Shown: positions 33,269-60,390, counted from the stretch's first letter. The stretch is 64,000 nucleotides of DNA from Streptomyces griseus subsp. griseus (GCF_000720255.1 NZ_JOJE01000025.1:47946-111945); one strand, 5' to 3'. Translations and numbers: made by a program. The notes: generated by a model from the sequence alone, not told the origin.

Positions 33269-34123
33269 TCAGGTGGTTCCGAGCATCAGGGCGATGCCCG
33301 CCATCATGACGCCGGCCGCGACGATCCTGGCGGCCCCGAACCGCTCCTTGAAGATGAAGACGGAGATGGCCGCGCCGGCGATCACGCTGGACTCCCGCAG
33401 CACGGCGACGGGCGCCAGCGGGGCCCGGGTCTGGGCCCACAGCACGAGCCCGTACGACACGACCGACAGCACCCCGCCGAGCAGTCCGGGCACCGCCACG
33501 GGCCGCAGTCGTTCGGCGAGGCCGCCGCGCAGCCGCACCGTGGCGTAGACGGGGATGGCCGTGCCGTCGAGCACCATCAGCCAGCCGATGTAGCCGAGGG
33601 CCGCCCCGGCCGAGCGCACGCCGACGCCGTCGACGAGGGTGTAGGCGGCGATGGTGAGCCCGGTCGTGGACGCCATGGCGATCGCCGGCCACTGCGGGGG
33701 CCGGCCCGACCGGCCGCGGACGCCCCACAGCGCGAGGCCGACGAGGCTGAGGGTCACCAGGACCATGCCCGTGGTGGCCGCGGCGCCCATCCGTTCCCCC
33801 AGGACGAAGGTCGCGAAGAGGGTCACCACGATCGGGGCCACCCCGCGCGCGATCGGATACACCTGGCCGAAGTCGCCGAGCCGGAAGGACCGGATCAGCG
33901 CCACCTGGTATCCGACGTGCAGGACGACGGAGGTGATCAGGAAGGGCCAGGCGGCCGCCGCCGGCAGCGGGGCCCAGGCCGCGAGGAGCGCGCCCGACGC
34001 GGTGCGGCCGATTCCGACCAGGGTCAGTCCGGCGAGTTCGTCCTTGATGCGGTGGGTGATCGCGTTCCAGCCGGCGTGGGTGACCGCCGCCAGCAGGACC
34101 ACCAGGGCCACCAGGGGCGTCAC
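33269..34123 (-). CDS. EamA/DMT-family transporter
   Basis: The product has 284 residues and starts at a GTG overlapping the previous stop (GTGA). It has about ten hydrophobic helices in two EamA repeats (LVALVVLLAAVTHAGWNAIT, then IAAYTLVDGVGVRSAGAALGYIGW and VAVLRESSVIAGAAISVFIFKERFG). DMT transporters export amino acids and related metabolites. As the last gene of the long minus-strand operon it may export a phosphonate product or precursor. The C-terminal FKERFGAARIVAAG is the usual family end. Confidence 0.9.
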   Translation of the reverse strand: MTPLVALVVLLAAVTHAGWNAITHRIKDELAGLTLVGIGRTASGALLAAWAPLPAAAAWPFLITSVVLHVGYQVALIRSFRLGDFGQVYPIARGVAPIVVTLFATFVLGERMGAAATTGMVLVTLSLVGLALWGVRGRSGRPPQWPAIAMASTTGLTIAAYTLVDGVGVRSAGAALGYIGWLMVLDGTAIPVYATVRLRGGLAERLRPVAVPGLLGGVLSVVSYGLVLWAQTRAPLAPVAVLRESSVIAGAAISVFIFKERFGAARIVAAGVMMAGIALMLGTT

Positions 34124-35142
34124 CCGGCGGGCCCGGCGGCCAGCGCGGCGAGCACCTCGGACCTGCTGGACGGGTCGAGCATGTCGACGTTGGCCCGGAA
34201 GCAGCGGGCCCCCGCCACCAGCTCGGCCAGCCGGCTCCTCATCGTGCCCAGCGCGCCGGTGAACTTCTCGAAGTCCCCGCCGAAGTGCGCGAGGAGGTCG
34301 TCCTTGAGACCGTAGTTGGTCACCGCGGACGCGAACTGCTCCAGGAACAGGACCGTCTGGTCGGGGGAGATGCGCTCGAAGCCGCGGTGGCCGGCCGGGT
34401 CGTGGTCGGTGATCACGATGTTGCGTATCCGGCCGGTGTCCGCGGGTGTGCCGGGGAACAGCAGCTCCGGGGGCGCGAGGTGGTCGCCGCTCTCCACATG
34501 GGGAGTGAGCCGGTGCCGTTCGATGAGCTCGTCGAAGTCGGCACCGCGCCGGATCCGGACCGTGGACGGGACGGCGAAGGCGACCCCGTCCCGCACCAGG
34601 ACGTGGGTGTTCGTCAGGAACCGGGCCCCGGCGCGGCACGCCTGGGTCAAGAAGACCGTCTTGCCGCCGCCGTTGGGGCCGACGAGAAGCGTGGCGCTGC
34701 CGTCGTCGAAGGCGAACCCGCCCGCCTTGAGGTGGAGGTAGCCGTGGTCGACGGCGAAGTCGGTCAGGATCCGCTTGACGAAGTAGGGCCAGACCGTGCG
34801 CTCCAGCCGGTGCCCGAAGACGTACGACCGGTGTCCCTCGGTGATCAGGTGGGCGGGGGCGCCGAAGATGTGGTTCAGGTAGTAGCCGGCCCTGAACCGC
34901 TTGGCCCGCAGGGTGCGGTCGGCGCGGGCCCGCAGTTCCTCCGGGTCGAAGGCGTCCCGGTCGAGGTCCACGCAGTGGATCTCGTAGTCGGCGGGTTCAC
35001 CGGCCTCGGTGGGCGGCACTTCGCGGGAGAAGTACGCGTAGGCGTCGAACTCGGGCAGGTTGGAGGAGATCCTGATCTTCAGCAGGTTCAGGTCCACCAG
35101 CTTCGACGAACGCCTGGGCAGCTCGCGCAGGTTCAAGGTCAT
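34120..35142 (-). CDS. P-loop protein, HPr-kinase-like
   Basis: The product has 340 residues and contains one Walker A motif (TLLVGPNGGGKTVFLTQACRAG) near residue 152, followed by a strand and NTHVLVRDG, as in HPr kinase-like proteins encoded in natural-product clusters. Residues 1-140 form an unrecognised N-terminal domain, and residues about 210-340 a helical tail. It overlaps both neighbours (carrier protein and EamA) by four bases. A role as a second kinase step for self-resistance, analogous to FomB, is possible, but nothing in the sequence proves it. Confidence 0.7.
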   Translation of the reverse strand: MTLNLRELPRRSSKLVDLNLLKIRISSNLPEFDAYAYFSREVPPTEAGEPADYEIHCVDLDRDAFDPEELRARADRTLRAKRFRAGYYLNHIFGAPAHLITEGHRSYVFGHRLERTVWPYFVKRILTDFAVDHGYLHLKAGGFAFDDGSATLLVGPNGGGKTVFLTQACRAGARFLTNTHVLVRDGVAFAVPSTVRIRRGADFDELIERHRLTPHVESGDHLAPPELLFPGTPADTGRIRNIVITDHDPAGHRGFERISPDQTVLFLEQFASAVTNYGLKDDLLAHFGGDFEKFTGALGTMRSRLAELVAGARCFRANVDMLDPSSRSEVLAALAAGPAG

Positions 35143-35399
35143 GAGCGCACCAGGCTGTCGACCGCCGCGACGATCCGGCCGACGGTCGAGAAGGTCTCCC
35201 GGGTGAGCAGGGCGTCGGGGAACTCGATGTCGAAGGTGTCCTCCAGACCCGCCATCAGGGACACGCTGCCCAGCGAGTCAAGGCCGGCCTGCCACAGGTC
35301 GGTGTCGGGGCCGATGGCCGCGGGGTCCGCGGACGGGCCGAGGAGGGGCAGCAGGATCTCCCGGACCGCCTGCTCCAGGGCCGTGGTCGTCTCTTCCAT
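35139..35399 (-). CDS. Peptidyl/acyl carrier protein
   Basis: An 86-residue carrier protein with the phosphopantetheine serine in the motif AGLDSLGSVSLM at about residues 40-51. The flanking acidic helices are typical. It is free-standing, so the adenylation and condensation proteins of the cluster must act on it in trans. The ATG at 35399 follows AAAGGAAC. Overlaps with the downstream gene (GTGA/ATGA) place it in the operon. Confidence 0.92.
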   Translation of the reverse strand: MEETTTALEQAVREILLPLLGPSADPAAIGPDTDLWQAGLDSLGSVSLMAGLEDTFDIEFPDALLTRETFSTVGRIVAAVDSLVRS

Positions 35400-35425
35400 G
35401 ACGCGTGTTCCTTTCGGGCCGGGGC

Positions 35426-35974
35426 TCAGGCGACCGCTTCGGCGCGGAAGCGCTCGACCACCTGCTGCGGGGTCCACTGCACGCGCCGGCCGGCGTGCGC
35501 GCCGCGCGGGGCGCACTTCACGTGCACCAGGGACGTGACACCGCGCTCGGGCCGCACGGCCGCCAGGCCCTCGGCCGAGTCGACGCTGAACGCGGCCGAG
35601 TAGCCCGCGGCGAGGGCGAGGGCGGCGGGGTCACCGATGCGGACCGGGCGCTGGCCGCCGGTGCTCTCGTGCAGTCCGTTGTCGAGCACCACGTGGACCA
35701 GGTCGGGGGCGTGCTCGGCGATCAACGGCAGCACGCTGAGGTTCATCGCGAAGGAGCCGTCGCCGTCGAGGACCACCACGTGCTTGTCGGGGCGCGCCAG
35801 GGCCACACCCAGACCGACGGGGGCGGCCATGCCCATGGAGCCGACCAGGTAGAGGTTCTGCGGCCGGTCGGCGGTGTTGTAGAGGTCGCGGGTGATGAAC
35901 CCGCAGGTCGACACATACAGCGAGGTGGGGAACTTCTCCGTGACCTCGCGGATCGCGTCCTGGATACCGAACAT
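35426..35974 (-). CDS. Phosphonopyruvate decarboxylase, beta (TPP-binding) subunit
   Basis: The product has 182 residues and is the C-terminal half of a thiamine-diphosphate decarboxylase. The cofactor motif is VVVLDGDGSFAMNLSVL (GDG followed at about 27 residues by DNG in VVLDNGLHESTGGQ). It must pair with the alpha subunit encoded immediately upstream, two bases away. Phosphonopyruvate decarboxylation makes the PEP mutase equilibrium irreversible and gives phosphonoacetaldehyde. Sulfopyruvate decarboxylase is also split in this way, but the pepM context decides the call. Confidence 0.9.
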   Translation of the reverse strand: MFGIQDAIREVTEKFPTSLYVSTCGFITRDLYNTADRPQNLYLVGSMGMAAPVGLGVALARPDKHVVVLDGDGSFAMNLSVLPLIAEHAPDLVHVVLDNGLHESTGGQRPVRIGDPAALALAAGYSAAFSVDSAEGLAAVRPERGVTSLVHVKCAPRGAHAGRRVQWTPQQVVERFRAEAVA

Positions 35975-35976
35975 GG

Positions 35977-36519
35977 TCAGATGCCTTCCTTCACGATGAG
36001 GACGGGGGTGAACCGGCCGTCCTCGGCCTTCGCCAGGCACCGGTCGACCGAGGCGTAGGGCTTCTCCGGGTCGAAGACCGTGTGCTTCAGGTCGAACACG
36101 TCCAGCAGATTGGTCAGTTCACGGCCGATCACGTCGTGTTCCACCGCGTCGTTGCCGTCGTGACCGCGCCAGCTGACGATCAACGGCACATGCAGGTCGT
36201 AGATCAGGTTCAGCGACGTCAGCACGTTCAGCGAGTAGCCGAGACCGGAGTTCTGCATGAGGACCACGGGCCTCGCTCCGGCGGCGGCGAGCCCCGAGGC
36301 GACGCCGAGCGCGGAGTCCTCACGCGGCGCCGGCAGATAGGTCAGGCCATCGGCGAGCGGTGCCTGCTTGCCTTCGAGCACGTTGAACACGCCCTTGAGC
36401 AGCGAGCAGGGCACCCCGGTGAAGTGGGTGAACCCCCGCTCGGCGAAGGCCCGGACAAGCTGCTGTGCGGGGGTTTCCAGCTGCCCGGCCGGTGCCGGTT
36501 CGATCTGGGTGACGGTCAT
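35977..36519 (-). CDS. Phosphonopyruvate decarboxylase, alpha subunit
   Basis: The product has 180 residues and is the N-terminal (pyrimidine-binding) half. The block FTHFTGVPCSLLKGVFNVLE matches phosphonopyruvate decarboxylases, and EDSALGVASGLAAAGARPVVLMQNSGLG follows, with the catalytic glutamate in ED. Its TGA is two bases from the ATG of the beta subunit, so the subunits are co-translated. Most phosphonate clusters encode a single chain of about 370-380 residues, so the split is unusual. Confidence 0.9.
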   Translation of the reverse strand: MTVTQIEPAPAGQLETPAQQLVRAFAERGFTHFTGVPCSLLKGVFNVLEGKQAPLADGLTYLPAPREDSALGVASGLAAAGARPVVLMQNSGLGYSLNVLTSLNLIYDLHVPLIVSWRGHDGNDAVEHDVIGRELTNLLDVFDLKHTVFDPEKPYASVDRCLAKAEDGRFTPVLIVKEGI

Positions 36520-36582
36520 GACGTGAACTCACTTCCGGGGTACGGGTGCCGCGCGCCCCGACGGGCGCGCGGCACGGGCCGG

Positions 36583-37308
36583 TTACGGCCAGGCGTTCAG
36601 TTCGGGCAGGGCGGCGGCTGTCGTGGTGGGCGCCACGGAGTGGGGGCGGCCCGAGATCCAGGCGGCCAGCGACCGCAGGGAACCGCGGACCTCGGTGCCG
36701 TCGCCGGCGCCCTTGCGCCATTCCTGCCCGGTGTCCTCGGCGACGAGGACGGTGCCCTCGGGCAGCCGGGGCTGCAGGAACGAGACGACATGGGCCGAGA
36801 GCGCGGCGCTCCAGTCCTCGGAGCGGTGGCCCGCGCCGAGGTCGACGCCGTGCAGTTCGGTCTCCCGCCACCACGCCAACTGCGTCGCGAACAGCGGCGA
36901 GTTGCGGTACGCGCAGGGCAGGTCCCAGCCGTCGGGGCCGAGCGCCGCCCACGCCTCCTCCAGGGCGGTCAGGCCCTCCTCCAGCTGCTCGCGCAGCCAT
37001 TCCACGGGGCGGTCGTGCAGCTCCTCGATGCGCCGGTCACGGGTGGGCCGGCCGCCGTCGTACACCTCGATGGTGCGGCCCTCGACGGCGTACCGGGCCT
37101 GCCGGGCGAAGGCCCTGGAGAGGTCCGCGAGGTGGATCAGGACGTGGCCCCGGGTCCAGCCGGGCAGTTCGATCGCCGCGCGGGCGTCCTGCTCGGTGAG
37201 TCCGGCCGCCTCGGCGCGCAGCCGCTCGTGGGCCGCGGTGATCTCCTTCAGCCGCTCCGGGATCTCGATGCCGCCGTACTCCGGGGCGTTGTAGGGGGTG
37301 TTGCTCAT
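36583..37308 (-). CDS. DinB/mycothiol-dependent maleylpyruvate-isomerase-type protein
   Basis: The product has 241 residues. The fold is the four-helix DinB bundle with the PGWTRGHVLIHLADLSRAFARQ metal block (His in HVLIHL) and a second His in WWRETELHGVDLG, which form the usual three-His metal site. Family enzymes use mycothiol as a thiol cofactor or co-substrate. In a biosynthetic cluster it may conjugate or release mycothiol from an activated intermediate. It overlaps the FAD enzyme gene by four bases (ATGA). Confidence 0.85.
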   Translation of the reverse strand: MSNTPYNAPEYGGIEIPERLKEITAAHERLRAEAAGLTEQDARAAIELPGWTRGHVLIHLADLSRAFARQARYAVEGRTIEVYDGGRPTRDRRIEELHDRPVEWLREQLEEGLTALEEAWAALGPDGWDLPCAYRNSPLFATQLAWWRETELHGVDLGAGHRSEDWSAALSAHVVSFLQPRLPEGTVLVAEDTGQEWRKGAGDGTEVRGSLRSLAAWISGRPHSVAPTTTAAALPELNAWP

Positions 37309-39557
37309 GCCGGGGTCCTTTCGATGTCCTTCGTCTCCGTGCCGGCCGGGGCCCCCTGCGGCATGAACGCGTTGATCCAGCACAGGATGTCCCGGATGAC
37401 GTGGTGGTCCTTGTTCGGACGGAGAGCGCCGATCTGGTGGTACATCACACCTTCGCTGGGCGGGCCCAGGAAAGTGATCCGCGACTCGACCGTGCCATCC
37501 GCCCGCACCGGATGGAACTCGGGGGTCAGGTCCAGGCCACCGGGCACGAAGTCGCCCTCTCCCACACCGGGGTTGGTCCACTTCCGTACCAGTCCGCGGC
37601 GCAGCAGGTTGGGATAGACCGGCATCACGTCGCGCTCCGCGTCGAAGGAGTGCACACGGGCGTCCACCAGCACGTCGGCCTGTCGTACGGTGCCGGTCAC
37701 CGGGCCGGTCACCCGGAACCGGCCGCTGTCCTCGTCGGTTTCGACGCGGGCGCCGGGGCCGGCCGAGATGTCGACGTGGCCGGAGCGGATGAGCGCGGTC
37801 ACCTTCTCCATGGCCTCGACCGAGGCGCCCTGGCAGAGCCGGTTGTGGTGCGGGGTGTACACGCCGAGGAAGGTGCGGTGGGAGGAGGCGCGCAGTCCGC
37901 CGAAGTCGACCGCGTCGATCACCACCCCGCGCAGGTCGCGCCAGGCCGCGTCGGCGGCGGCCTTCGCCGGGTTGCTCAGGTTGCCCTGGGCCGCCCAGCG
38001 GATGTCCACGTCGAGGAAGTCGAGGAAGGTCTCGACGTATTCCTCGGCGTTCGCGTAGCCGCTGCGCGGGACGGGGCTGATCGTCCGCTCCCAGGAGAAG
38101 CGGTGCTCGGCGGCGCGCCGGGGGTGCCGCCACGGGGACTCGGCGGCGGCCACCGCGGCCGCGAACTGCTCGGGGACGTCGGCCAGGTCGAGCAGTTTGG
38201 CGGCCTGGTCGGCGCCGTGCACCACGGTGAGGAAGGAAGCGAGCAGACCGGCGAGCGGCGGCTGCCCGTCCCGCGGAGCGCCGGCCGGGGCCGTGCGGCC
38301 CGCCAGTGCCTCGTCCACCCGGGCGGCGGCGGACCGCGCCAGCTCCTCCAGCGGGGCCAGCAGGAACGCGGCCGCCTCCTGGTGGTCCGCGAACGCGTCG
38401 GCGTCCGCGAGGAACTTGTCGTACGCCGGCCGGGCCGCGCGGATCGCCGCCGCACGGAACTCCGTGCCGTACAGGGTGCCGTAGTAGATGAGCGACATCT
38501 CGAGCAGGATCAGCGGGAAGACGTGCGCCTCGAAGTCGAGCTGGCGCTTTTCGTGGCCGCCGATGACGTTGGGTACGCCCACCGTGGCGCGCAGTTCGGC
38601 CACGGCGGCCGTGGTGAGGAACGGACCCTTGTACTCAAGGGTCGCGATGTCGCGTTCCTTCTCGTTGTACGGGCGCGCGAAGGTGAACAGTCCGGAGCGG
38701 CTGAAGGCGACGACGGAGTCGGGCTCGCGTCCGCACGGCCGGTACTCCAGCCGGCCGTCCGGGCCGCGCTCGAAGGTGCCGCCCCTGCCCTCCGTGAGGT
38801 ACAGCAGCACGTCGATACCGGTGAGCCCCATGCCCAGGCAGGCCACGGTGGTCCCGGGGCCGGTGCGGGCCGGGTCGAGGGACCGCTCCAACGGGTAGGC
38901 GTTCGGGATCAGATGGGCCTGGTGCCGGGCGGCGAAGTCCGCCCAGGCGGCCTGCCGCGGATCGAGTTCGGGCCGGTTGGAGGAATGACCCGTGAGCATG
39001 AGGACGTAGTCCGCCTCGTACGGCGTGGCTCCGTCCGCGGTGAGGATCCCGAACCGCTCGCCGCGCTCCTCCAGGTCCACCACTTCGGACCGCCTGAGCG
39101 TCACCGAGACGCCCTCGGCCGCGCTCAGGATGGCGACGTACTGGGTGAACTGGTCCTTCAGGGCGAGGCCGTGCAGGTAGCGCTTGGGCCAGTCCTCCGC
39201 GACCAGGTCGAAGCGCGCGTCGCCGGTCTCCTGGAACTTCCTGCGGCACCACTGCAGGAAGGTGGGCCGCTCGTCGGCCGTGAGCAGCGGGCCGGCCTCC
39301 ACGACGCTCTCGTCGGCGGCGAACGCCACCTGGCCCACGACCCGGTTGAGATAGCTGGTTTTGGTCTGGTCGGGGCTGTGCACCTGGCCGGGGCCGAACT
39401 CGCCCGAGAGGTCGTAGATCGCGATCTCCAGGGGCACCGGCCGGTCGTTGGCGCGCACCAGAGCGGCGAGACGTTCCAGCACGTAGGTGCAGGTGGGTCC
39501 GCCGCCCACGATGGCCAGGTGAATCGGTGCAGTGGCTGGGGAGTTGTCGGTCGTCAC
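37305..39557 (-). CDS. Large FAD/NAD(P)-binding protein (PF13454-type)
   Basis: The product has 750 residues. The N-terminal IHLAIVGGGPTCTYVLERLAAL is a Rossmann FAD motif, followed by GPGQVHSPDQTKTSYLNR and a second NAD(P)-type glycine block TVACLGMGLTGIDVLLYL. The C-terminal half has GASVEAMEKVTALIRSGHVDI and a long unrecognised region. Some members of this flavoprotein group oxidise amines or amino acids. A role in N-oxidation of the aminoethylphosphonate or diaminopropionate nitrogen is inference. It is four bases from the aminotransferase gene. Confidence 0.8.
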   Translation of the reverse strand: MTTDNSPATAPIHLAIVGGGPTCTYVLERLAALVRANDRPVPLEIAIYDLSGEFGPGQVHSPDQTKTSYLNRVVGQVAFAADESVVEAGPLLTADERPTFLQWCRRKFQETGDARFDLVAEDWPKRYLHGLALKDQFTQYVAILSAAEGVSVTLRRSEVVDLEERGERFGILTADGATPYEADYVLMLTGHSSNRPELDPRQAAWADFAARHQAHLIPNAYPLERSLDPARTGPGTTVACLGMGLTGIDVLLYLTEGRGGTFERGPDGRLEYRPCGREPDSVVAFSRSGLFTFARPYNEKERDIATLEYKGPFLTTAAVAELRATVGVPNVIGGHEKRQLDFEAHVFPLILLEMSLIYYGTLYGTEFRAAAIRAARPAYDKFLADADAFADHQEAAAFLLAPLEELARSAAARVDEALAGRTAPAGAPRDGQPPLAGLLASFLTVVHGADQAAKLLDLADVPEQFAAAVAAAESPWRHPRRAAEHRFSWERTISPVPRSGYANAEEYVETFLDFLDVDIRWAAQGNLSNPAKAAADAAWRDLRGVVIDAVDFGGLRASSHRTFLGVYTPHHNRLCQGASVEAMEKVTALIRSGHVDISAGPGARVETDEDSGRFRVTGPVTGTVRQADVLVDARVHSFDAERDVMPVYPNLLRRGLVRKWTNPGVGEGDFVPGGLDLTPEFHPVRADGTVESRITFLGPPSEGVMYHQIGALRPNKDHHVIRDILCWINAFMPQGAPAGTETKDIERTPA

Positions 39558-39561
39558 CGGT

Positions 39562-40689
39562 TCACCACTCCTTTTTCTCGGTCTCGTGCTTGCTCAGGAC
39601 GTCGTCGAACGCGGCGAAGAAGCCGGCGATGTCGGCCGCGGTGAGCTGGCCCATGTTGGCCAGCCGGAACACTCCGGCGGACTTCGCCTGGGTGGCGTAG
39701 ATGACGTAGCCGCGCTCCTTGAGCCCGTCGTGGAGTTCGTCGTACGTCAGGCCGCCCGCGAGATGGGCGTTGGTGATCGAGGCGGCCCGCTGGTGCGGGG
39801 GGAGGAGCAGTTCGATGCCGCGCTGCTCGAGGCCCTCGCGGATCTCCCGGGCCCGGTCCGTGTAACGGCGGCCGCGGGCGGCCACGCCCTCCTCCAGGGT
39901 CAGGTCCAGCGCGGTGTCGAGGGCGCGCAGGACCTGCAGGGCCGGGGTGAACTGGGGGCTGCGGTCGAGGACCTGGGCGCGGTAGCCCGCGAACAGGTCG
40001 AAGTAGAAGGTGCGTGCGGGCAGCGGCTCCAGCGCGGCGAGGCGTTCGCGCGGGGCGCAGACGAAGCTGATCCCGGGCAGCCCCTCCAGGCACTTGTTCG
40101 CGGTGCCGACGCACCAGTCGACGTGGTCGGCGACGACGTCGAGCTCCTCGGCGCCCAGGCTGCTGATGGCGTCGACGATCAGCGACCGGCCGTGCCGGGC
40201 GACGACGTCGCCCAGCTCACGCAGGGGGTTGAGCATGCCGGTGCTGGTCTCGTGGTGGACCATGCCGACGTGCGTGACGCCGGGGTTCTCGCCCAGAAAG
40301 CGGTCGACCGTCTCGGGCGTGATCGGATTGGCCCACCCGAATTCGAGATGGTCCACGTCGATGCCGTGGACTCGGGCGATGCGCAGCAGCCGTTCGCCGT
40401 AGTGGCCGTTGTCGAGGACGAGGAGCCGCCCGTCGGCCGGTACGACGGAGCTGACGACCATCTCCAGGGCCGCCGTGCCCGAGCCCGTGAGCAGCACGGC
40501 GGTGTGCGAGTCGCCGCCGCCGCACACCTCGACGATCTTGTCGGCCACGGCGACCAGGAGCTCCTGGGCCTCGGGTTCGCGGTGGCACTCGTCGGGCGAG
40601 GCGATGGCGGCGCGGACCCGGTCGTGCACATTGACCGGACCCGGGTTCAGCAGGACGACCCGGTCTCGCCGGTCGGGCGCGGTGGTCAT
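39562..40689 (-). CDS. PhnW-like class V aminotransferase (AEP-type)
   Basis: The product has 375 residues from the ATG at 40689, which overlaps the kinase stop (ATGA). The fold-type I PLP site has the Lys in CVGTANKCLEGLPGISF, preceded by VDAISSLGAEELDV. It matches 2-aminoethylphosphonate-pyruvate aminotransferases (VVLLNPGPVNVHDRVR at the start). In this setting it would convert phosphonoacetaldehyde to AEP, giving the amino-phosphonate unit. The reverse direction is known in catabolic operons, which this is not. The longer frame upstream is a shadow of the kinase gene. Confidence 0.9.
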   Translation of the reverse strand: MTTAPDRRDRVVLLNPGPVNVHDRVRAAIASPDECHREPEAQELLVAVADKIVEVCGGGDSHTAVLLTGSGTAALEMVVSSVVPADGRLLVLDNGHYGERLLRIARVHGIDVDHLEFGWANPITPETVDRFLGENPGVTHVGMVHHETSTGMLNPLRELGDVVARHGRSLIVDAISSLGAEELDVVADHVDWCVGTANKCLEGLPGISFVCAPRERLAALEPLPARTFYFDLFAGYRAQVLDRSPQFTPALQVLRALDTALDLTLEEGVAARGRRYTDRAREIREGLEQRGIELLLPPHQRAASITNAHLAGGLTYDELHDGLKERGYVIYATQAKSAGVFRLANMGQLTAADIAGFFAAFDDVLSKHETEKKEW

Positions 40690-53924: not shown

Positions 53925-55345
53925 CGCCAGAGCGCGGGCCGGCGAGCCCGCCCGTACCGGTGTCCCGTCGCACCGTGGCCGTGCCCTTCGCGGCGGGCCG
54001 GTCCGGCCGGGCTCCACTGACCTGGAGCCAGCAGTACTACCTGGCGGAGCTGGACGCGGCCCGCCCGCACGGCCGCAGCCTGGCCATCACCCGGCTCTAC
54101 CCCCTACGGGCCGGAGTCCGCGAGGAGGAGGCGACGGCCGCGCTGCGCGAGCTCGTCGAACGCTACGAGAGCCTGCGCAGCCGGGTGACACGGACCGCTC
54201 CTCCCGGCCAGCAGGCGCACGGCCACGGCTCGTTGCAGGTGACGGCGCACGACCTCGCCGCGCCCGCCGCGGCCCACGAGGTCCATGCGGCGGCCGAGGC
54301 CGTGCTCGCGGACCTCGCCCGCGTTCCCTTCGACGTCGCCGAGGAGTGGCCGCTTCGGGCCGCCCTGATCGGCGTCGGCGGGCGGCCCCGCTTTCTCGCC
54401 CTGGCCTTCAGCCATGTCGCCGTGGACGCCTTCGCGCTGCTGCCGGTCAGCGCCTTCCTGATCGACCGGTGCGCGCAGGCGGACCCGGTCGCGCGGACCG
54501 CGCCCGGTTCCGCCGTCGAGGGTCTGCAGCCGCGTGAGCTGGCCGGGGCCGAGGCGTCCGAGACGGCGTCCCGCTCCGCCCGACGGGCGCTGCGGCACGC
54601 CGAGCGGGCCCTGCGGCGCATGCCCGCGGCGCCCGCCTGCGCCGGTCTGCCGGGGGCCGGCGAGCGGTTCCGTTTCCTGCGCCGCAGGTCGGCCGCGCTC
54701 GACCTCGCCGTGGGCGCGGTGGCGGCACGCACCGGGGAGAGTCCCGCCTCCGTACTGACCGCGGCCGTACTGGCCACCGACGCCGCTCGAACCGGCGAGC
54801 GGTACGGCGCCGTCCAGCTGATCTCCGCGAACAGACTGCGCCCGGAAACCGTCGACGCGGTCGTCCCCTGCTCCCAGCCGGTGCTGTGCTGCGTGGACAC
54901 GTGGGACGCGTCCTTCACGGAGCTGGTGCGCCGTACCGCGTCCGCGTCCCTGCGCGCCTACGCGGCCGGTCCGTGCCCGCCCGCCGCCCTGGCGGAACTG
55001 CGCGCCACCGTGGAGAAGGAGCGGGGCGTACGGCTGGACGGCGCCCCGACCCTCAACTACCGCCCACGGGCGACCCCGCTGCCCGTGCGGGAGGCCGGCG
55101 CCGAAGAGCTGCGCCGGGCCGCGGCCGACGCCGAGACCGCTTGGGTGGACAGCGCCATGCTCTGGCAGTCCGCCCACTACCTCAGCGCCGACGTCGACGG
55201 CTCGGGCGTGCGGCTGCTGCTGCAGGTGGACACGGCTGTCCGGACTCCCCGGTGGGCCGAACGCTGGCTGGCCGACCTGGAAGACCTGCTCTGCGCCGCC
55301 GCATCGGACGCCACCGCGACCCGCACGCCCGCCGGACTCGGCTGA
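53921..55345 (+). CDS. Free-standing NRPS condensation-domain protein
   Basis: The product has 474 residues. The condensation motif HHxxxDG is degenerate: LALAFSHVAVDAFALL keeps the catalytic second His (first His is Ser) and the Asp, while the Gly is Ala. The N-terminal LTWSQQYYLAELDA is the family start. It is expected to form a peptide bond from the carrier-bound residue. The start overlaps ATP-grasp 1 (ATGA). The degenerate motif leaves activity to be tested. Confidence 0.85.
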   Translation: MTPERGPASPPVPVSRRTVAVPFAAGRSGRAPLTWSQQYYLAELDAARPHGRSLAITRLYPLRAGVREEEATAALRELVERYESLRSRVTRTAPPGQQAHGHGSLQVTAHDLAAPAAAHEVHAAAEAVLADLARVPFDVAEEWPLRAALIGVGGRPRFLALAFSHVAVDAFALLPVSAFLIDRCAQADPVARTAPGSAVEGLQPRELAGAEASETASRSARRALRHAERALRRMPAAPACAGLPGAGERFRFLRRRSAALDLAVGAVAARTGESPASVLTAAVLATDAARTGERYGAVQLISANRLRPETVDAVVPCSQPVLCCVDTWDASFTELVRRTASASLRAYAAGPCPPAALAELRATVEKERGVRLDGAPTLNYRPRATPLPVREAGAEELRRAAADAETAWVDSAMLWQSAHYLSADVDGSGVRLLLQVDTAVRTPRWAERWLADLEDLLCAAASDATATRTPAGLG

Positions 55346-55394
55346 CCCTCCGACGCCGCGCACCCCCTCGACACGTATGAATCCGGAGAGCCCC

Positions 55395-56642
55395 ATGACA
55401 GACACGCGACAGCAGCAGACCGTCCTCCTGATCGGCGCAGGTGTGATGGCCGAGGGCTATCTGCGCGCGGCCCAGGCGGCGGGCCTGCGGGTGGGCATCG
55501 TGGAGACGCCCGCCCGGCACGCGGCCCTGACCGGGCGTTTCCCTTGCATCGTGGACTTCGAACCGGCGGCGGAGGCGACCGTGACCCGGGACGAGAGCTG
55601 GCTGTCCCCGGCCATGACCCTGGCCGGCCGGCTCGTTCCGGACGCCGTGTGGGCGTTCGCGGAGGCCCACGTCATGGCCGCGGCCATGGTGCAGCACCGC
55701 CTCGGACTGCCGGGCCCCGGTCTCGACGCGGCGACCGTCTCCCGCAACAAGGCGTTCCAGCGCGCCGAGTTCCACCGCGCGGGCCTGCCGCAGCCCGGTC
55801 ACCGGCACACACTGCGGCTGTCGGACCAGCGGGAGTGGGCGCTCGCCCGGCTGCCCGTCGTGGTGAAACCCGTGTCGCTGCAGGGCAGCCAGGGCGTGGA
55901 GCGGGTCGCGAGCGCCGCGGAGTGGGACGACGTGGTGGCCAGGCGGGAGAGCGAGGGGCCCCTGCTGGTCGAGGAGTACGTGGAGGGCCAGGAGTACAGC
56001 GTGGAGGCGCTGGTGCACCAGGGCCGGGTCCTGTTCACCAACCTGACCCGCAAGGAGACCAGCGGGCCGCCGTACTTCGTCGAGCTGTTCCACGAAGCCG
56101 GCTACGGCGCGGACCGGCCCCTGCTGCGCAAGGCCGCGGAAGAGCTGTGCGCGGGTGTCGTGGAGGCCCTGAACTTCTCCACCGGCGTCGTCCACCTGGA
56201 GTTCCGCGCACGCGCCGACCAGGATTTGGTGATCATGGAGGTGGCCGTCCGCACCCCAGGCGACCACATCATGGAACTCGTCGCCCGCGCACATGACTTC
56301 GACGTCTTCGCCGCCTGTCTGAGCCTCGCCCTCGGCGAGGTTCCGAAGACGCCCGAGGCACCGGCACGCGCCGCGGGCAGCCTCTTCCTGTCGGCGCCGG
56401 AAGCGGGCCGGCTGACCGCGCTCGACCTCGCCGCGTGGGCGGCCCGGCCCGAGGTCGCCCGACACGACGCCCGCCTCTCGCCCGGCGCGCAGGTGCGCCC
56501 CGCGCAGAACTCGGGAGATCGCCTCGCCTGGGCGGTGCTCGAGTGCCCGACCGGGCAGGAACTGCGCCTGCTGGCCGAGCGGTTGGTCACCGAGGCCGTG
56601 GTGGAGATCGACCCGGCCGACGCGCCCGCCCCCGGGGCGTGA
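55395..56642 (+). CDS. ATP-grasp ligase 2
   Basis: This 415-residue ATP-grasp protein has VVVKPVSLQGSQGVERV and EEYVEGQEYSVEALV. The metal-binding block reads IMEVAVRTPGDHIM, where the usual Asn of E-x-N-x-R is Val or Ala, so metal binding may differ. The ATG at 55395 is chosen because GGAG lies eight bases upstream; an ATG at 55377 would add six residues. It forms a series with ATP-grasp 1 and 3. Confidence 0.85.
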   Translation: MTDTRQQQTVLLIGAGVMAEGYLRAAQAAGLRVGIVETPARHAALTGRFPCIVDFEPAAEATVTRDESWLSPAMTLAGRLVPDAVWAFAEAHVMAAAMVQHRLGLPGPGLDAATVSRNKAFQRAEFHRAGLPQPGHRHTLRLSDQREWALARLPVVVKPVSLQGSQGVERVASAAEWDDVVARRESEGPLLVEEYVEGQEYSVEALVHQGRVLFTNLTRKETSGPPYFVELFHEAGYGADRPLLRKAAEELCAGVVEALNFSTGVVHLEFRARADQDLVIMEVAVRTPGDHIMELVARAHDFDVFAACLSLALGEVPKTPEAPARAAGSLFLSAPEAGRLTALDLAAWAARPEVARHDARLSPGAQVRPAQNSGDRLAWAVLECPTGQELRLLAERLVTEAVVEIDPADAPAPGA

Positions 56643-56696: not shown

Positions 56697-57941
56697 ATGT
56701 CCAAGCAGCGCGTCCTGATCGTCGGTGGACGGATCGAGAACGTCCGCAAAGCCAAGGAGCAGGGATACGAGGTCGTCTTCCTGCAGCGCCCCGAACTGTT
56801 CCTCGCGGAGCACGCCAAGCTGGTGGATGCCGCGCTGCTGGTCGACTACCGGGACTGGGGCATCCTCGAACCCCTGATCACAGCGGCCCATCAGGTGTAC
56901 GGCTTCACGACCGCCGTGACCACGAGCGAGGCCGGACTGGAACCCGCCGCGCGCATCAACGACCTGCTGGGGCTCGGCGGTGTCTCCCACGACGTGGCCC
57001 TGCTGCTGCGGGACAAGCTGCGCATGCGCCGCCATCTCGCCTCCGTGGCACCGGAGATCACCGTCGCCGCCGAGGAACTCGACGGCCGGGAGAGCCTCGA
57101 CCGGTTCGCGGCGGCCCACGGATACCCGTTCATCGTGAAGCCGGTGGACGGCATCGCCAGCCTCGGCCTCCAACTGGTCACGGACGAGGCGGAACTCGAC
57201 CGCGTCTGGGAGACGGCCCGCGGACTGCGTGGGGTGGAGCACCAGTTCGCCTCGGCGTTCCCCCTCGAGCGGTTCATCATGGAGGAGTACGTCGACGGTC
57301 CGGAGTTCAGCGTCGAGGCCTTCACCTTCGCCGGCCGGCACGTGATCGTGGCGATCACCGAGAAGCTGACCTCCGACAACTTCGTGGAACTCGGCCATGT
57401 CGTGCCCGCCCGGGTGTCCCCGGACTCGGCGAGCGCGATCGAGCGCTGCGTGCGGACCTTCCTCGACGCGATCGGGCTCCAGGAGGGCCCGAGCCACACG
57501 GAGGTGCGGCTCTCGGGCCGGGGGCCCCGGGTGATCGAGTCGCACAACCGGCCGGGCGGCGACCGCATCCGGGACCTGGTGGAGGCGGCTTACGGCTTCG
57601 ACATCGAGCGGTACACCGTCGCCTGGGCGAGCGGCACCCTGCCGGCGCTGGAGAGCAGGCCCCCGCTGCGGCAGGCCGCGGCGACCCGCTTCCTGAGCGC
57701 GGAGCCGGGCACGGTGACGGCGGTGGAGGGGCTGGCGGAGGCGGCGGAGCAGACGGACGTGCTGACCGTCGCCCTCGACGTCGCCGTCGGCGACACCGTA
57801 CGGCCGCTGCGCTCCAGCTGGGACCGGATCGGGCAGGTGGTCGCCGTGGGGCCGGACGCGGACGCCGCGCTCGCCCGGTGCGAGAAGACCGGCGCGAGCG
57901 TCGTCGTCCGCACGGAGGTTACGGCCGATGCCCCCGAGTGA
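56697..57941 (+). CDS. ATP-grasp ligase 3
   Basis: This 414-residue ATP-grasp protein has FIVKPVDGIASLGLQLV and EEYVDGPEFSVEAFTF. The metal block VIESHNRPGGDRI is intact (E, N, R). It is closest in layout to L-amino acid ligases that make dipeptides. Its last 14 bases overlap the PPOX gene. The ribosome site is ATCGAGGAG. Confidence 0.9.
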   Translation: MSKQRVLIVGGRIENVRKAKEQGYEVVFLQRPELFLAEHAKLVDAALLVDYRDWGILEPLITAAHQVYGFTTAVTTSEAGLEPAARINDLLGLGGVSHDVALLLRDKLRMRRHLASVAPEITVAAEELDGRESLDRFAAAHGYPFIVKPVDGIASLGLQLVTDEAELDRVWETARGLRGVEHQFASAFPLERFIMEEYVDGPEFSVEAFTFAGRHVIVAITEKLTSDNFVELGHVVPARVSPDSASAIERCVRTFLDAIGLQEGPSHTEVRLSGRGPRVIESHNRPGGDRIRDLVEAAYGFDIERYTVAWASGTLPALESRPPLRQAAATRFLSAEPGTVTAVEGLAEAAEQTDVLTVALDVAVGDTVRPLRSSWDRIGQVVAVGPDADAALARCEKTGASVVVRTEVTADAPE

Positions 57942-58605
57942 CCCGGCGCGCCCGCCCGTCCAGCAGCCCGGCGCCCCAGCGGGTTCCGGCCACATCGAGA
58001 TCACGTCCGAGGAGGAGTTGCGTGGCCTGATCGGTGAGGCGAACCCGGTCGTCTTCGGCAAGGCGACCCGGCTGCTGGGCGAGTTCGAGAGGGCGTGGAT
58101 CCGGCACACACCGCTGGTGATGATCGCGACGGCGGCTCCGGACGGCTCCTGCGACGTGTCCCCCAAGGGTGATCCGGCGGGCTTCGTGCAGGTCCTCGAC
58201 GACTCCACGCTGGCGATGCCGGACCGGCCGGGCAACCGGCGGCTCGACAGCTGGCGCAACGTCCTGCAGAACCCGCACATCGGAATGATCTTCGTGATTC
58301 CGGGGCGGGGCGACACCCTGCGGGTCAACGGACGGGCGCGGCTGGTCCGTACGCCGACGCTGCTGGACGGGATGGTCGTCAAGGGCAATCGGCCGAAACT
58401 GGCCGTTCTGGTGGACGTCGAGGAGGCCTATTTCCACTGCGCAAAGTCGTTCATGCGAGCCGGTGTCTGGGATCCTGCGTCCTGGACGCCGGAAGCGGCG
58501 CCGTCCAGGGCCCGCATCGCCAGGAGCACGGAGTGGAAGGACGTACCCCTTGACGTGCTCGAAGAGCGGTACGGGGCGTCCTACGAGCGCCGCCTCTACC
58601 CGTGA
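57928..58605 (+). CDS. PPOX-class (pyridoxamine-5'-phosphate-oxidase-like) flavoprotein
   Basis: The product has 225 residues. The split-barrel FMN-binding fold is indicated by TPLVMIATAAPDGSCDVSPKGD and LAMPDRPGNRRLDSWRNVLQNPHIGMIFVIPG. It resembles MSMEG_1061-type PPOX proteins that bind FMN or F420. The role could be reduction or oxidation of an intermediate. It is the last gene of the plus-strand operon, overlapping ATP-grasp 3 by 14 bases. Confidence 0.85.
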   Translation: MPPSDPARPPVQQPGAPAGSGHIEITSEEELRGLIGEANPVVFGKATRLLGEFERAWIRHTPLVMIATAAPDGSCDVSPKGDPAGFVQVLDDSTLAMPDRPGNRRLDSWRNVLQNPHIGMIFVIPGRGDTLRVNGRARLVRTPTLLDGMVVKGNRPKLAVLVDVEEAYFHCAKSFMRAGVWDPASWTPEAAPSRARIARSTEWKDVPLDVLEERYGASYERRLYP

Positions 58606-58659
58606 CCGGCAGACCGCAGGTGCCGATGGACACGACCCCGACGCCATGGATGCCAGGGA

Positions 58660-58720: not shown

Positions 58721-58855
58721 GCCGGTTGAGGCGGGGCTAGCTTGATTGTCAGGCGGGCCGCACGGGGGAAATGGCCACCTCTGGAGCGCGCCTTGCCCGC
58801 GGTCAACGGTGATCGCACCTCTCACCCCACCAGCAACAGGCAAGGATCGATCATC

Positions 58856-58996: not shown

Positions 58997-59022
58997 CCGG
59001 TCAAAGCTTGCAAAACGCAACC

Positions 59023-59049
59023 TTGCCAACTTTAGACAAGGTTTGCCAT
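59023..59049 (+). promoter_or_regulatory. TTGNCAA-type sites upstream of the XRE-TPR gene
   Basis: TTGCCAA (59023-59029), TAGACAA (59033-59039, degenerate) and TTGCCAT (59043-59049) lie 10 bases apart. They are 120 bases before the regulator start, so autoregulation is likely. Confidence 0.6.
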
Positions 59050-59169
59050 ACTCTTGGTCTGGGGGAGTCGCCGAGGCGACTCCCCCTTGAGTGCCTTCTA
59101 GGGCCAAACGCGCCTGTGCGGGGCGCCGCTGACTGAACCCGATCATCACCCTCGAGGACGGATCCACTC

Positions 59170-60390
59170 ATGCTGGAGCAGCCGAGCTTCGGCCGACGCC
59201 TGCGTCAGTTGCGACTGCAGCAGGGCAAGTCGCAGTCGGAGCTGACCGGACCCGGAATGTCGGCCGCCTATCTGTCCAGGCTCGAATCCGGGGCACGCCC
59301 GCCGACCGACCGCGCCGTGGCGTATCTGGCCGAGCGACTGGACGTGCCGGTCGAAAGCTTCGCCCAGTACTCCGAGAACGATCTGGCCGATCTGGTCATG
59401 ACTCTCTCCTCGCGACCGCACGGTGAGCGTGACGGGGAGATCCGCGACCTTCTCAACGACGCGCTCAGCACCGCCATCGACGTGGACGCCACGACGCGCT
59501 GGGAGGCTCTCGACCTCTTCGCCCGCCAGCACTCGGCACTCGGCGAGTTCCAGGAGGAGCGCACCGTCCTGGAGAAGCTGGAGGTGATGAGCCGCGAGCT
59601 GAACCGCCCGGCGCTGCACGTCTACGTCCTGCAGCGCATCGCCCGATGTTGCCGAAACCTCGGCGACATGGAGGGTGCCCGGAGCTCGGCCCAGGAAGCG
59701 CTGGAGCTCACCCGGCGGCACCAATTGCGCGTCCTGACCGCGGACCTCGTCCGCGCCAAGCTCCTGCTCATCTCCGCCGAAGCGGAACTCGGCAACCTCG
59801 CGGAAGCGGCCGCCCTCAGCACCGAGGTGTGCGAGAGCCTGCCGCACGGCGAGGGCGCACTCGCCGCCGAGGCCTACTGGACCGCGTCCACCGTCCGGGC
59901 CAGGCAGGGCAACTTCAGCCAGGCGTTCGAGTTCATCGAGAGGGCGCTCGCGGCCCTGGACAGCCGCGAGGAACTCACCCTGTGGATGCGTCTCAGGCTG
60001 GCCGCGGCAAGCCTGTCGCTCCAGTCCATGCCGCCCCGCCTCGACCGGGCCGAGGCCCTGCTGACCGAGGTGGAGCCTGCGCTCAAGCTCGCAGGCCCGC
60101 CGAGGAACGTACAGGAACTGCTCCTCCTCAAGGCCCAACTCGCCTATCGGCAGGGCCAGATGGAGCGCACCGCCGAGCTCGTCGCGGCCGCCGAGGACGA
60201 TGTGCACCTGCTGACCTACCGGGACCAGATCCGCTTCCGGCTGCTGCGCGACATGCTCGCCGCCTACGCCGGCGACTCCGGCGCGGACCACCGACTGCGG
60301 GAACTGGCCGCCCAGGTACAGGCGGCGCGGATGCCCGACCTCAGCGCGGAAGTGTGGCGCGCCATCGCCGAGAGCGTTCCGGCCGCCTAG
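59170..60390 (+). CDS. XRE-family regulator with TPR domain (RRNPP-like)
   Basis: The product has 406 residues. The N-terminal helix-turn-helix (FGRRLRQLRLQQGKSQSELT, then YLSRLESGARPPTD) is XRE-type, and residues about 95-400 are helical repeats with TPR-like spacing (ALGEFQEERTVLEKLEVM, NLGDMEGARSSAQEALEL, QGNFSQAFEFIERALAAL). This architecture is that of RRNPP regulators (NprR, PlcR) that bind secreted peptides. It is located beside the peptide gene and the phosphonate operon, whose promoters share TTGNCAA sites. Its stop codon lies at the edge of a MITE. Confidence 0.88.
   Translation: MLEQPSFGRRLRQLRLQQGKSQSELTGPGMSAAYLSRLESGARPPTDRAVAYLAERLDVPVESFAQYSENDLADLVMTLSSRPHGERDGEIRDLLNDALSTAIDVDATTRWEALDLFARQHSALGEFQEERTVLEKLEVMSRELNRPALHVYVLQRIARCCRNLGDMEGARSSAQEALELTRRHQLRVLTADLVRAKLLLISAEAELGNLAEAAALSTEVCESLPHGEGALAAEAYWTASTVRARQGNFSQAFEFIERALAALDSREELTLWMRLRLAAASLSLQSMPPRLDRAEALLTEVEPALKLAGPPRNVQELLLLKAQLAYRQGQMERTAELVAAAEDDVHLLTYRDQIRFRLLRDMLAAYAGDSGADHRLRELAAQVQAARMPDLSAEVWRAIAESVPAA

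Follow-up and report, generated by a model that had tools for sequence, protein, structure and literature searches.

A Streptomyces griseus gene cluster predicted to join aminophosphonate N-oxidation with carrier-bound diaminopropionate

Phosphonate natural products such as fosfomycin and phosphinothricin fall into few classes. The window analysed here, a 64,000-nucleotide stretch of Streptomyces griseus subsp. griseus, holds phosphonate genes beside genes for diaminopropionate (Dap) supply, which raises the question whether they form one pathway and what it would make. A first-pass annotation had proposed a phosphonopeptide with an oxidised 2-aminoethylphosphonate (AEP) and Dap, and had recognised no characterised phosphonate pathway with a Dap cassette; none was found in a title-level literature search, several key papers being beyond its reach.

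By tblastn, the gene set recurs in ten named assemblies, which span three genera (type I; PepM 75-99%) and include G020, G127 and G113 (FomB-bearing same-genus loci); TldD/TldE are missing from the G113 version. Judged from this recurrence in relatives, the cluster is not a chance neighbourhood. Three more Streptomyces clusters (type II) retain the Dap cassette, the N-oxygenase and the ligases; in these, a set of dehydrogenase, PGK-like, semialdehyde-dehydrogenase and Fe-ADH genes (C3 set) replaces the phosphonopyruvate decarboxylase (Ppd) and the dioxygenase.

The span was determined as 32782-60390, one gene cluster of about 25 genes. The boundaries 33269..60390 given before were correct on the right and one gene short on the left, where a CYTH gene (32782-33258) belongs.

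32782..33258, minus strand: CYTH-domain protein (PF01928 42.1 bits)
59170..60390, plus strand: HTH-TPR regulator, right edge (PF13560 42.8 bits)

The CYTH gene adjoins the EamA gene in six of the ten type I relatives (L045, L046, L047, L049, L052, L079; tblastn 52-82%), was not found by tblastn in L048, L050, L051 and L053 of the same ten, and probably marks the left edge. The HTH-TPR regulator is kept in three type I and three type II clusters. A minus-strand operon runs from PepM through EamA and a plus-strand operon from TauD through PNPOx; with the starts chosen here, eight 4-base stop/start overlaps occur between cluster genes. PepM, the split Ppd, the aminotransferase, SbnA/SbnB, the carrier protein, the adenylation and condensation proteins and three ATP-grasp ligases all lie where the first-pass annotation had placed them (profile searches, motifs). 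Its list lacked a PcxL-family flavin N-oxygenase, an FrbJ-related dioxygenase and FomA/FomB-type kinases, as well as a PF14907 nucleotidyltransferase, a mycothiol-enzyme relative and TldD/TldE. Three points alter the earlier picture: the oxidation can be named, Dap is probably core, and the phosphonate head is apparently exchangeable.

The head group would be formed by the following genes.

46531..47391, minus strand: PepM, phosphoenolpyruvate mutase (PF13714 184.9 bits, cut-off 31.5)
35977..36519, minus strand: PpdA, phosphonopyruvate decarboxylase N-terminal TPP half (TIGR03297 95.3 bits, positions 1-153)
35426..35974, minus strand: PpdB, phosphonopyruvate decarboxylase C-terminal TPP half (TIGR03297 133.9 bits, positions 171-358)
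39562..40689, minus strand: AEP-type (PhnW/AepZ) aminotransferase (TIGR03301 346.4 bits, just below cut-off 360.8)
47653..48621, plus strand: TauD-type Fe(II)/2-oxoglutarate dioxygenase (PF02668 73.9 bits; HND and distal His)

PepM carries EDKLFPKMNS, which fits EDKx5NS, presumably the PepM signature motif; its nearest solved structure is PepM 5unc, and its score lies under the NCBIfam equivalog cut-off (TIGR02320 276.7 bits vs 319.55). PpdA and PpdB are two separate genes. The aminotransferase is nearest to AEP-pyruvate aminotransferase 1m32 and the dioxygenase to FrbJ 5eqn (E 7.9e-13) among solved structures. The dioxygenase, which is proposed to hydroxylate C1 of AEP, was present in 10/10 type I genomes and in none of six other genomes searched whole. 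As the C3 route would place a hydroxyl beside the amine carbon, the same hydroxy-amine motif is plausibly re-created in type I by the dioxygenase. Counting against this argument, L061 and L085 have Ppd and no TauD match at their loci (for L085, none in a whole-genome search), and plain AEP may be N-oxidised there.

37305..39557, minus strand: FAD/NADPH N-oxygenase, PcxL-HpxL / CreE-FzmM family (PF13454 88.9 bits)

The solved structure nearest to the N-oxygenase is 8cp2, whose residues N62, R266, R409, R412 and R577 are retained. In its aspartate pocket, R13->T, R276->E, N413->G and R416->I are replaced in 11/11 type I sequences (window included), the alignment near R276 being less sure. Residue 707 is His in the same 11; among the other 38 rows it is Phe in 37 and a gap in one. 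A role as a CreE/FzmM aspartate N-hydroxylase is not supported, since the four aspartate-binding residues of 8cp2 are not conserved. Relatives at 49-53% identity occur fused to PepM. In the tree the type I enzymes come out as a single clade (100/100). It lies in a mixed group, which also comprises C3-set clusters, L061 and L085 and stands apart from a 16-row Ppd clade; support is weak (85/55) for the branch joining type I to the type II group. PcxL, itself not a row of this tree, may belong with the 16-row clade. According to the available parts of the sources, PcxL (WP_051704824.1; PMC10404684) acts on AEP (PMC10404684, PMC12366243), PcxL-type enzymes continue as far as the oxime (PMC10404684), and the hydroxyphosphonocystoximic acid pathway passes through S-HAEP (PMC10404684, PMC12366243). 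The oxidation in the cluster can be assigned, on sequence, to a putative flavoprotein of the PcxL and CreE/FzmM family without the aspartate pocket, plus the FrbJ-related dioxygenase.

The sequence flanking 48 N-oxygenase loci (L045-L092) was read for neighbouring genes. PepM was matched in 42/48 and the aminotransferase in 40/48; Ppd occurred in 28/48, the C3 set in 15/48, either in 43/48, and both in no locus. The phosphonate head thus appears exchangeable between two routes. SbnA and SbnB were both present in 13/48 loci, all of which also match the adenylation enzyme, carrier protein, PF14907 protein, FomA-like kinase, mycothiol-family protein, aminotransferase and PepM.

45474..46448, minus strand: SbnA, Dap biosynthesis PLP synthase (TIGR03945 364.3 bits, cut-off 349.95)
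44432..45481, minus strand: SbnB, Dap biosynthesis dehydrogenase (TIGR03944 402.9 bits, cut-off 326.9)
42744..44435, minus strand: free NRPS adenylation (A) enzyme (TIGR01733 344 bits, cut-off 317.4)
35139..35399, minus strand: free peptidyl/acyl carrier protein, PCP (PF00550 41 bits; GLDSL phosphopantetheine site)
53921..55345, plus strand: free condensation (C) protein (PF00668 26.3 bits, below cut-off 30.6)

SbnA is nearest to the solved structure of SbnA, 5d87. The ten-residue code of the A enzyme, read from its sequence, is DIWEITADDK; orthologues vary at position 299 alone, where aligned, and a literature search found no published match. The residues at 278, 330 and 331 are acidic, which we take to suit a diamino acid, and the enzyme is predicted to activate Dap. 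Catalytic motifs in the cluster are intact except in the C protein, which has SHVAVDA where HHxxxDG is expected, the first His and last Gly missing. SHVAVDA is retained in 5/5 Streptomyces relatives where aligned, with one extra adjoining F/Y change; the C proteins of L051 and L107 score above the PF00668 cut-off (76.4 and 76.9 bits). A C protein was present in 9/9 clusters read on that side (window included).

The remaining genes encode kinases, ligases, exporters and tailoring proteins.

34120..35142, minus strand: FomB-family phosphonate-monophosphate kinase (NF000361 581.8 bits, cut-off 400; P-loop GPNGGGKT)
40686..41558, minus strand: FomA-like amino-acid-kinase-fold phosphonate kinase (PF00696; NF000338 176.7 bits, below cut-off 550)
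41555..42742, minus strand: PF14907 nucleotidyltransferase (145.7 bits; DxD motif)
36583..37308, minus strand: mycothiol-dependent maleylpyruvate isomerase family protein, MDMPI/DinB fold (TIGR03083 82.8 bits, cut-off 50)
52647..53924, plus strand: ATP-grasp ligase 1 (PF13535 60.7, PF18603 51.3 bits)
55377..56642, plus strand: ATP-grasp ligase 2 (PF13535 72.6, PF18603 45.2 bits)
56697..57941, plus strand: ATP-grasp ligase 3 (PF13535 91.1, PF18603 77.5 bits)
48676..50019, plus strand: TldD-type metalloprotease subunit (PF19289 207 bits; HEACCH)
50016..51359, plus strand: TldE/PmbA-type subunit (PF19289 136.1 bits in the enclosing ORF)
51376..52635, plus strand: MFS exporter (PF07690 145.1 bits)
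33269..34123, minus strand: EamA-type transporter, phn_DUF6-like (PF00892; TIGR03340 126.2 bits, below cut-off 288.15)
57928..58605, plus strand: PPOX-type FMN flavoprotein, PNPOx (TIGR04025 231.8 bits, cut-off 170)

The FomB-family kinase, probably a self-resistance protein, was found in 10/10 type I relatives and was not seen in the type II loci, which carry a FomD-like DUF402 gene below its equivalog cut-off. The FomA-like kinase is nearest to FomA 3d40 among solved structures (E 1.5e-48). The DxD motif of the PF14907 protein is retained in every orthologue aligned. The mycothiol-family protein retains its His and Glu/His motifs and is nearest to 2nsf, Cgl3021 (E 2.1e-7). The ligases are of the ATP-grasp/LAL_C2 type, and an 'argininosuccinate lyase' model (NF002563) matches all three over its ATP-grasp half only. 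The TldE/PmbA-type subunit reaches 24.1 of 438 bits with the NCBIfam PmbA model. The EamA-type transporter, probably an exporter, is present in 9/10 type I relatives (exception L051), and the PPOX-type flavoprotein in 9/9 clusters with the matching flank read (window included).

Gene content, motifs, conservation of the cluster and the split between Ppd and the C3 set are read from sequence; in the scheme that follows, we deduce from the genes all substrates, the sequence of the steps and the chemistry that joins the parts. PepM would convert PEP to phosphonopyruvate, PpdA/PpdB this to phosphonoacetaldehyde, and the PhnW-type aminotransferase this to AEP. The FrbJ-related TauD enzyme would hydroxylate C1, giving 2-amino-1-hydroxyethylphosphonate, and the PcxL-family flavoenzyme would oxidise the amine to a hydroxylamine or oxime; the order of these two enzymes could be opposite. 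L-Dap would be supplied by SbnA/SbnB, and the free A enzyme would attach it to the free PCP. Coupling of Dap with the N-oxidised head group would fall to the C protein, the mycothiol-family enzyme or both, and the link would be a hydroxamate, an amidoxime or a ring closed via the vicinal diamine of Dap. In the Streptomyces clusters the three ATP-grasp ligases would add amino acids later, and TldD/TldE, where present, would trim the peptide. The FomA- and FomB-type kinases would add phosphate to the phosphonate, either protecting the producer or providing a handle, and the MFS and EamA proteins would export the product, presumably a phosphonopeptide containing Dap. That the locus is one biosynthetic cluster for a phosphonate natural product made by this AEP/N-oxidation/Dap route is our best reading, which we hold at about an even chance. 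Our confidence is slightly lower because L061 and L085 have Ppd without a TauD match; also counted against it are PepM, aminotransferase and FomA scores below NCBIfam equivalog cut-offs, and the sub-cut-off score and degenerate HHxxxDG of the C domain.

The gene evidence fits the proposed product with oxidised AEP and Dap, but Dap is probably its core and not a peptide decoration, because two members of the family with no ligase seen in the flanks read retain the Dap cassette. These distant members, Streptosporangium and Dactylosporangium, are included in the 13 SbnA/SbnB loci and keep SbnA, SbnB, the A enzyme, PF14907 and a C domain; no ATP-grasp ligase was matched in the flanks read, and ligase 3, the one ligase searched genome-wide, has no orthologue there (best matches 35% and 32%). 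This, with an A code that looks suited to a diamino acid, weighs against the unlikely alternative that Dap is simply one residue among others in a short phosphonopeptide, strung with them onto oxidised AEP by the ligases, with A, PCP and C handling another acyl unit. The three ATP-grasp/LAL_C2 ligases would agree with such a role, and two ATP-grasp ligases build phosphonoalamide peptides in the available part of PMC11867202.

Unlikely, too, is a product like FR-900098, for which the flavoenzyme would go no further than the N-hydroxylamine. Acylation of this by the C protein, with carrier-bound Dap, would then yield an N-Dap-N-hydroxy aminoalkylphosphonate, with a three-carbon FR-33289-like backbone in type II. 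FrbJ as the nearest structure of the dioxygenase, the C protein in all nine clusters read, and type II genes compatible with a 3-amino-2-hydroxypropyl head are in favour of this reading; however, PcxL-type enzymes go on to the oxime in the available text of PMC10404684, the mycothiol-family gene is left without a role, and the C protein motif is degenerate.

A bolder reading, also unlikely, is that the Dap cassette builds the warhead: the N-oxidised hydroxy-phosphonate would be raised to the nitrile-oxide level and trapped by mycothiol or directly by carrier-bound Dap, whose vicinal diamine would give a phosphonate amidoxime or imidazoline(-carboxylate). The same machine would take a two-carbon head from Ppd, aminotransferase and dioxygenase (type I) or a three-carbon head from lactate-type dehydrogenase, PGK-like kinase and semialdehyde dehydrogenase (type II). 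If true, the pharmacophore would represent a new class, with homologues supplied by nature.

It is distinctly improbable that Dap is only a carrier-tethered precursor, converted to another building block (e.g. by the PPOX-type flavoprotein) and absent from the product; the free A and PCP with tailoring genes and the flavoprotein in all nine clusters would suit this, but, flavoproteins aside, no gene with an obvious function in modifying a PCP-bound amino acid was recognised. L-alanosine-like N-N chemistry, in which the flavoenzyme makes nitrosuccinate from aspartate and nitrous acid nitrosates Dap, shares the Dap origin and CreE family with alanosine (available part of PMC11705231) but is very hard to uphold, as a Pfam scan of the cluster proteins found no cupin or CreD-type lyase domain, the lyase model NF002563 hits the ligases only in its ATP-grasp half, and the aspartate pocket is not conserved.

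Under the preferred reading, the cluster looks built for an undescribed phosphorus-carbon antibiotic-like molecule. Besides the window, at least 13 named assemblies hold a member of the family, and the cluster is carried by named strains. For aminophosphonate N-oxidation joined with carrier-bound diaminopropionate, a literature search, with some key papers beyond reach, found no counterpart. The natural pair of clusters with swapped head-group routes allows one to ask directly which part of the molecule is the active unit, and the FomA/FomB-type genes hint at a toxic phosphonate resembling fosfomycin that merits isolation.

Among known systems, phosphonocystoximate and hydroxyphosphonocystoximate (hydroxynitrilaphos) share an N-oxygenase of the same family (PcxL/HpxL) acting on AEP, and the latter pathway has a hydroxylated AEP intermediate, as proposed here (available parts of PMC10404684, PMC12366243). 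The N-acetylcysteine part of phosphonocystoximate (available part of PMC13302981) is one that a mycothiol-family enzyme would suit. Relative to pcx, the cluster apparently adds SbnA/SbnB, A, PCP, C, PF14907, FomA/FomB, TldD/E and ATP-grasp genes, and its N-oxygenase falls outside the clade that may hold PcxL. Phosphonoalamides, rhizocticin, plumbemycin and valinophos combine PepM with ATP-grasp ligation, as in the cluster; the available part of PMC11867202 mentions no Dap cassette, carrier protein or such N-oxygenase for them. With fosfomycin the cluster shares FomB, above its curated cut-off, and a kinase whose nearest solved structure is FomA, and type II shares the FomD-like gene; however, the FomA-like and FomD-like proteins are below equivalog cut-offs, and the scan of the cluster proteins turned up neither a radical methyltransferase nor an epoxidase family. 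FR-900098 and FR-33289 follow an N-oxidised, hydroxylated aminoalkylphosphonate logic like that of the cluster, which shares an FrbJ-related dioxygenase with them; it presumably differs in N-oxygenase family and carbon route and in its added Dap cassette. SbnA/SbnB-type Dap supply is known from staphyloferrin B and dapdiamide. L-Alanosine has it too (available part of PMC11705231). In contrast to these three, the cluster proteins scanned include no siderophore synthetase, lyase or cupin, and the Dap genes lie inside the pepM operon.

The window lies within contig C25 of a 9.9-Mb genome of 265 contigs. The cluster consists of two divergent operons at 32782-60390, which meet between PepM (minus strand) and a TauD-type dioxygenase gene (plus strand):

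Within 32782-60390, minus strand, in order from the divergence: PepM, SbnA, SbnB, free adenylation protein (A), PF14907 nucleotidyltransferase, FomA-like kinase, AEP-type aminotransferase, FAD/NADPH N-oxygenase, MDMPI-family protein, PpdA, PpdB, free carrier protein (PCP), FomB, EamA, CYTH
Within 32782-60390, plus strand, in order: TauD, TldD, TldE, MFS, ATP-grasp ligase 1, condensation protein (C), ATP-grasp ligase 2, ATP-grasp ligase 3, PPOX flavoprotein and, last, an HTH-TPR regulator

With the start codons as chosen, there are 4-base overlaps between eight neighbours, and the overlaps linking SbnA, SbnB and A tie the diaminopropionate (Dap) genes to the pepM operon. This overlap, together with the occurrence of the Dap genes with pepM in 13 of 48 loci, rules out two unrelated adjoining clusters. 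The single Dap/pepM gene set described in the first-pass annotation is real, conserved and coherent. A Dap siderophore was ruled out as well, since the siderophore synthetase family is absent among the cluster proteins scanned. Every catalytic motif that was checked is intact: EDKx5NS of PepM, GLDSL of PCP, HND plus the distal His of the dioxygenase, HEACCH of TldD, DxD of the nucleotidyltransferase and the P-loop of FomB. The weak point is the C protein, which scores under the Pfam cut-off and carries SHVAVDA where HHxxxDG is expected.

Relatives were collected in two ways. A FomB search of 392 same-genus genomes gave 18 matches at E 0.001, eight of them above the cut-off, and the FomB-bearing loci of 9 of the 17 genomes besides the window's were read. 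Four of the eight above-cut-off genomes, the window's own included, carry the Dap cluster, which was found in G020 (S. flaveolus), G127 (S. californicus) and G113 (S. lonarensis); these three are already among the type I relatives and are no extra cases. An N-oxygenase pattern scan, using one genome per species (84,980 species), gave 61 loci; as it relied on two short peptide patterns, it is not exhaustive. Forty-eight (L045-L092) were counted; L093-L105 were left out of residue comparison, gene-content counts and tree, L093, only 4.7 kb long as a contig, has matches to PepM and the aminotransferase, and L094-L105 match at 25-35%. Flanks of more than 10 kb cover six clusters (S. flaveolus, S. 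californicus, S. lonarensis; Streptosporangium, Dactylosporangium; type II), with L046, L047, L048, L052 and L079 excluded.

Clusters like the window's (type I) make up 10 of the 48 loci: S. flaveolus, S. sp. S3(2020), S. hokutonensis, S. sp. NRRL WC-3549, S. californicus, S. lonarensis, S. bikiniensis and S. sp. SCUT-3, and outside Streptomyces, Streptosporangium carneum and Dactylosporangium aurantiacum. Their PepMs are 75-99% identical to that of the window, with 86-99% in the eight Streptomyces relatives. PMC11867202 reports that PepMs sharing 80% identity or more accompany similar products, a rule under which these eight would fall.

Both SbnA and SbnB were found in 13 of the 48 loci, and all 13 have matches to A, PCP, PF14907, the FomA-like kinase and MDMPI. 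A ligase-3 orthologue occurs in 11 of these 13 genomes at 65-96% identity; genome-wide, the best ligase-3 match is 35% in Streptosporangium and 32% in Dactylosporangium, and the flanks of both gave no match to ligases 1-3. The two retain a C protein which passes Pfam, and Streptosporangium has an additional second A gene. TldD and TldE had no match in the Streptosporangium, Dactylosporangium and S. lonarensis clusters; in S. lonarensis, TauD is directly followed by MFS. The A code DIWEITADDK varies among orthologues only at position 299, where aligned. Its acidic residues would suit a second amino group, and the literature search found no published match to this code. Dap looks better viewed as part of the product core; the phosphonopeptide class proposed in the first-pass annotation is a plausible hypothesis.

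The nearest solved relative of the flavin N-oxygenase is 8cp2, which, judging by context, is probably the aspartate N-hydroxylase described in PMC10404684. There, the aspartate N-hydroxylase is grouped with PcxL (AEP to 2-hydroxyiminoethylphosphonate) and FzmM/CreE. The aspartate-pocket residues are altered in all 11 type I flavoenzymes, and N62, R266, R409, R412 and R577 (8cp2 numbering) are retained. Because relatives exist as PepM fusions and the N-oxygenase is paired with PepM in 42 and with the aminotransferase in 40 of the 48 loci, the data point to an aminophosphonate as substrate. PepM-family and N-oxygenase domains were seen on a single chain in proteins P0074, P0076, P0077, P0079, P0083, P0087, P0094, P0098 and P0177, two of them named Solirubrobacterales. 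Alanosine-type N-N chemistry was rejected on the strength of the altered aspartate pocket and the absence of a cupin/lyase domain among the cluster proteins Pfam-scanned. The Pantoea pantaphos flavoprotein HvrB was rejected as a counterpart, being NtaA-like according to PMC7858074. Separately, flavoprotein relatives at 25-29% in loci L100-L104 (Leeuwenhoekiella, Mesonia, Cytophagaceae MAG, Rhodopirellula) have an SbnA-like gene nearby (37-39%) and no PepM match.

The rooting of the maximum-likelihood tree (50 rows) is not firm, 8cp2 having an end branch of 6.26. In this tree the type I N-oxygenases form one clade (100/100), nested in a 20-row group (100/98) in which Dap clusters mix with non-Dap ones and Ppd clusters with C3-set ones. 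Apart from this group, a 16-row clade comprises Ppd clusters with no SbnA/SbnB match. Support is low (85/55) for the branch that unites type I with the type II group.

Type II comprises Streptomyces anulatus NRRL B-2873, S. sp. I6 and S. sp. NRRL S-455. These clusters contain PepM, SbnA, SbnB, A, PF14907, PCP, the FomA-like kinase, aminotransferase, N-oxygenase, MDMPI, TldD, TldE, MFS, three ligases, C, the PPOX gene and the HTH-TPR regulator. Searches of the whole genomes gave no match to TauD and, for PpdB, weak matches only, as other thiamine enzymes give. Around pepM, in the extra flanks L108, L110 and L111, lie genes for a 2-hydroxyacid dehydrogenase, a semialdehyde dehydrogenase of ArgC type, a PGK-like kinase and an Fe-ADH, together with a FomD-like DUF402 gene; the families were assigned in L108, and L110 and L111 have matches to them. 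This gene set suggests a head group of three carbons, made via phosphonolactate. PMC12871164 describes 2-hydroxyacid dehydrogenases as a known way of coupling to PepM, and PMC12723261 mentions Streptomyces sp. I6 as holding two phosphonate clusters. The FomD-like gene (L108:6555-7166) also has matches in L054, L060, L065, L085, L110 and L111, hinting at nucleotidyl-phosphonate intermediates, with PF14907 perhaps as their maker.

Within the sequence read, Ppd was found in 28 of the 48 loci, the PGK/semialdehyde-dehydrogenase set in 15, both in none and neither in five (L058, L059, L065, L080, L092). L065, whose contig begins at SbnB and which groups with L085, was counted as partial, without route assignment. 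Zero overlap would have a chance of 1.4e-8 if loci were independent; as they are related, this gives the order of size only. S. acidiscabies carries two loci in one genome, one per route (L060, L085). C3-type clusters were also seen in Pseudomonas cerasi (L084), Xenorhabdus (L088), Erwinia piriflorinigrans (L089) and Pantoea allii (L090), with the N-oxygenase family at 33-36% adjoining PepM and PGK/ArgC/Fe-ADH matches. Two further C3-type clusters, L054 and L078, are without SbnA/SbnB and match PepM, the FomA-like kinase, the aminotransferase, the N-oxygenase and, as MDMPI-like, the mycothiol-family protein; PGK and Fe-ADH share a single open frame in L054 as called.

All 10 type I genomes carry the dioxygenase, which was found in none of the six other genomes searched. 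Hydroxylation of AEP at C1 by this enzyme would place a hydroxyl carbon beside the amine in the two-carbon series. Because the C3-route amine adjoins a hydroxyl carbon, this would recreate the C3-route motif, if the relatives use that route; we infer that the dioxygenase may restore the hydroxy-amine motif on AEP. Its nearest solved relative, FrbJ, was counted as support for C1 hydroxylation, as was S-HAEP, an intermediate of hydroxyphosphonocystoximic acid according to PMC12366243. Against this reading stand L061 and L085, which fall within or next to the mixed group of the tree: both have Ppd and no TauD match, so plain AEP may also be N-oxidised.

FomB scores above its curated threshold, and for the second kinase the closest solved structure is FomA; the pair would fit phosphorylation of a phosphonate drug for self-protection. 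CYTH adjoins EamA in 6 of the 10 type I relatives; the type II loci gave no CYTH match and, in the sequence read, no FomB match either. The CYTH protein (32782-33258, at the cluster edge) was found solely in clusters with FomB in the sequence read, and our guess is a triphosphate-type hydrolase re-arming a doubly phosphorylated product. Left of the cluster, 22605-27792 holds a HAD hydrolase, a gene without an assigned family and two genes for APH-family phosphotransferases, of which the second shows two matched stretches. Another cluster, L031 in genome G029, has FomA (47%), FomB (56%), PepM (53%), Ppd and TauD (34%) matches and no SbnA/SbnB match.

Literature searches on pepM with diaminopropionate, FomA/FomB in phosphonate clusters (which yielded resistance reviews), phosphonates with ATP-grasp, phosphonate with Dap/SbnA, and the strain numbers with phosphonate (which led to work on another species) found no description of the cluster in the texts covered. 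Within that coverage, the earlier statement that no characterised phosphonate pathway with a Dap cassette is recognised provisionally stands. The cluster family belongs to the PepM phosphonate clusters and its novelty is provisional: it is real, conserved and coherent, a variant within this known kind of cluster.
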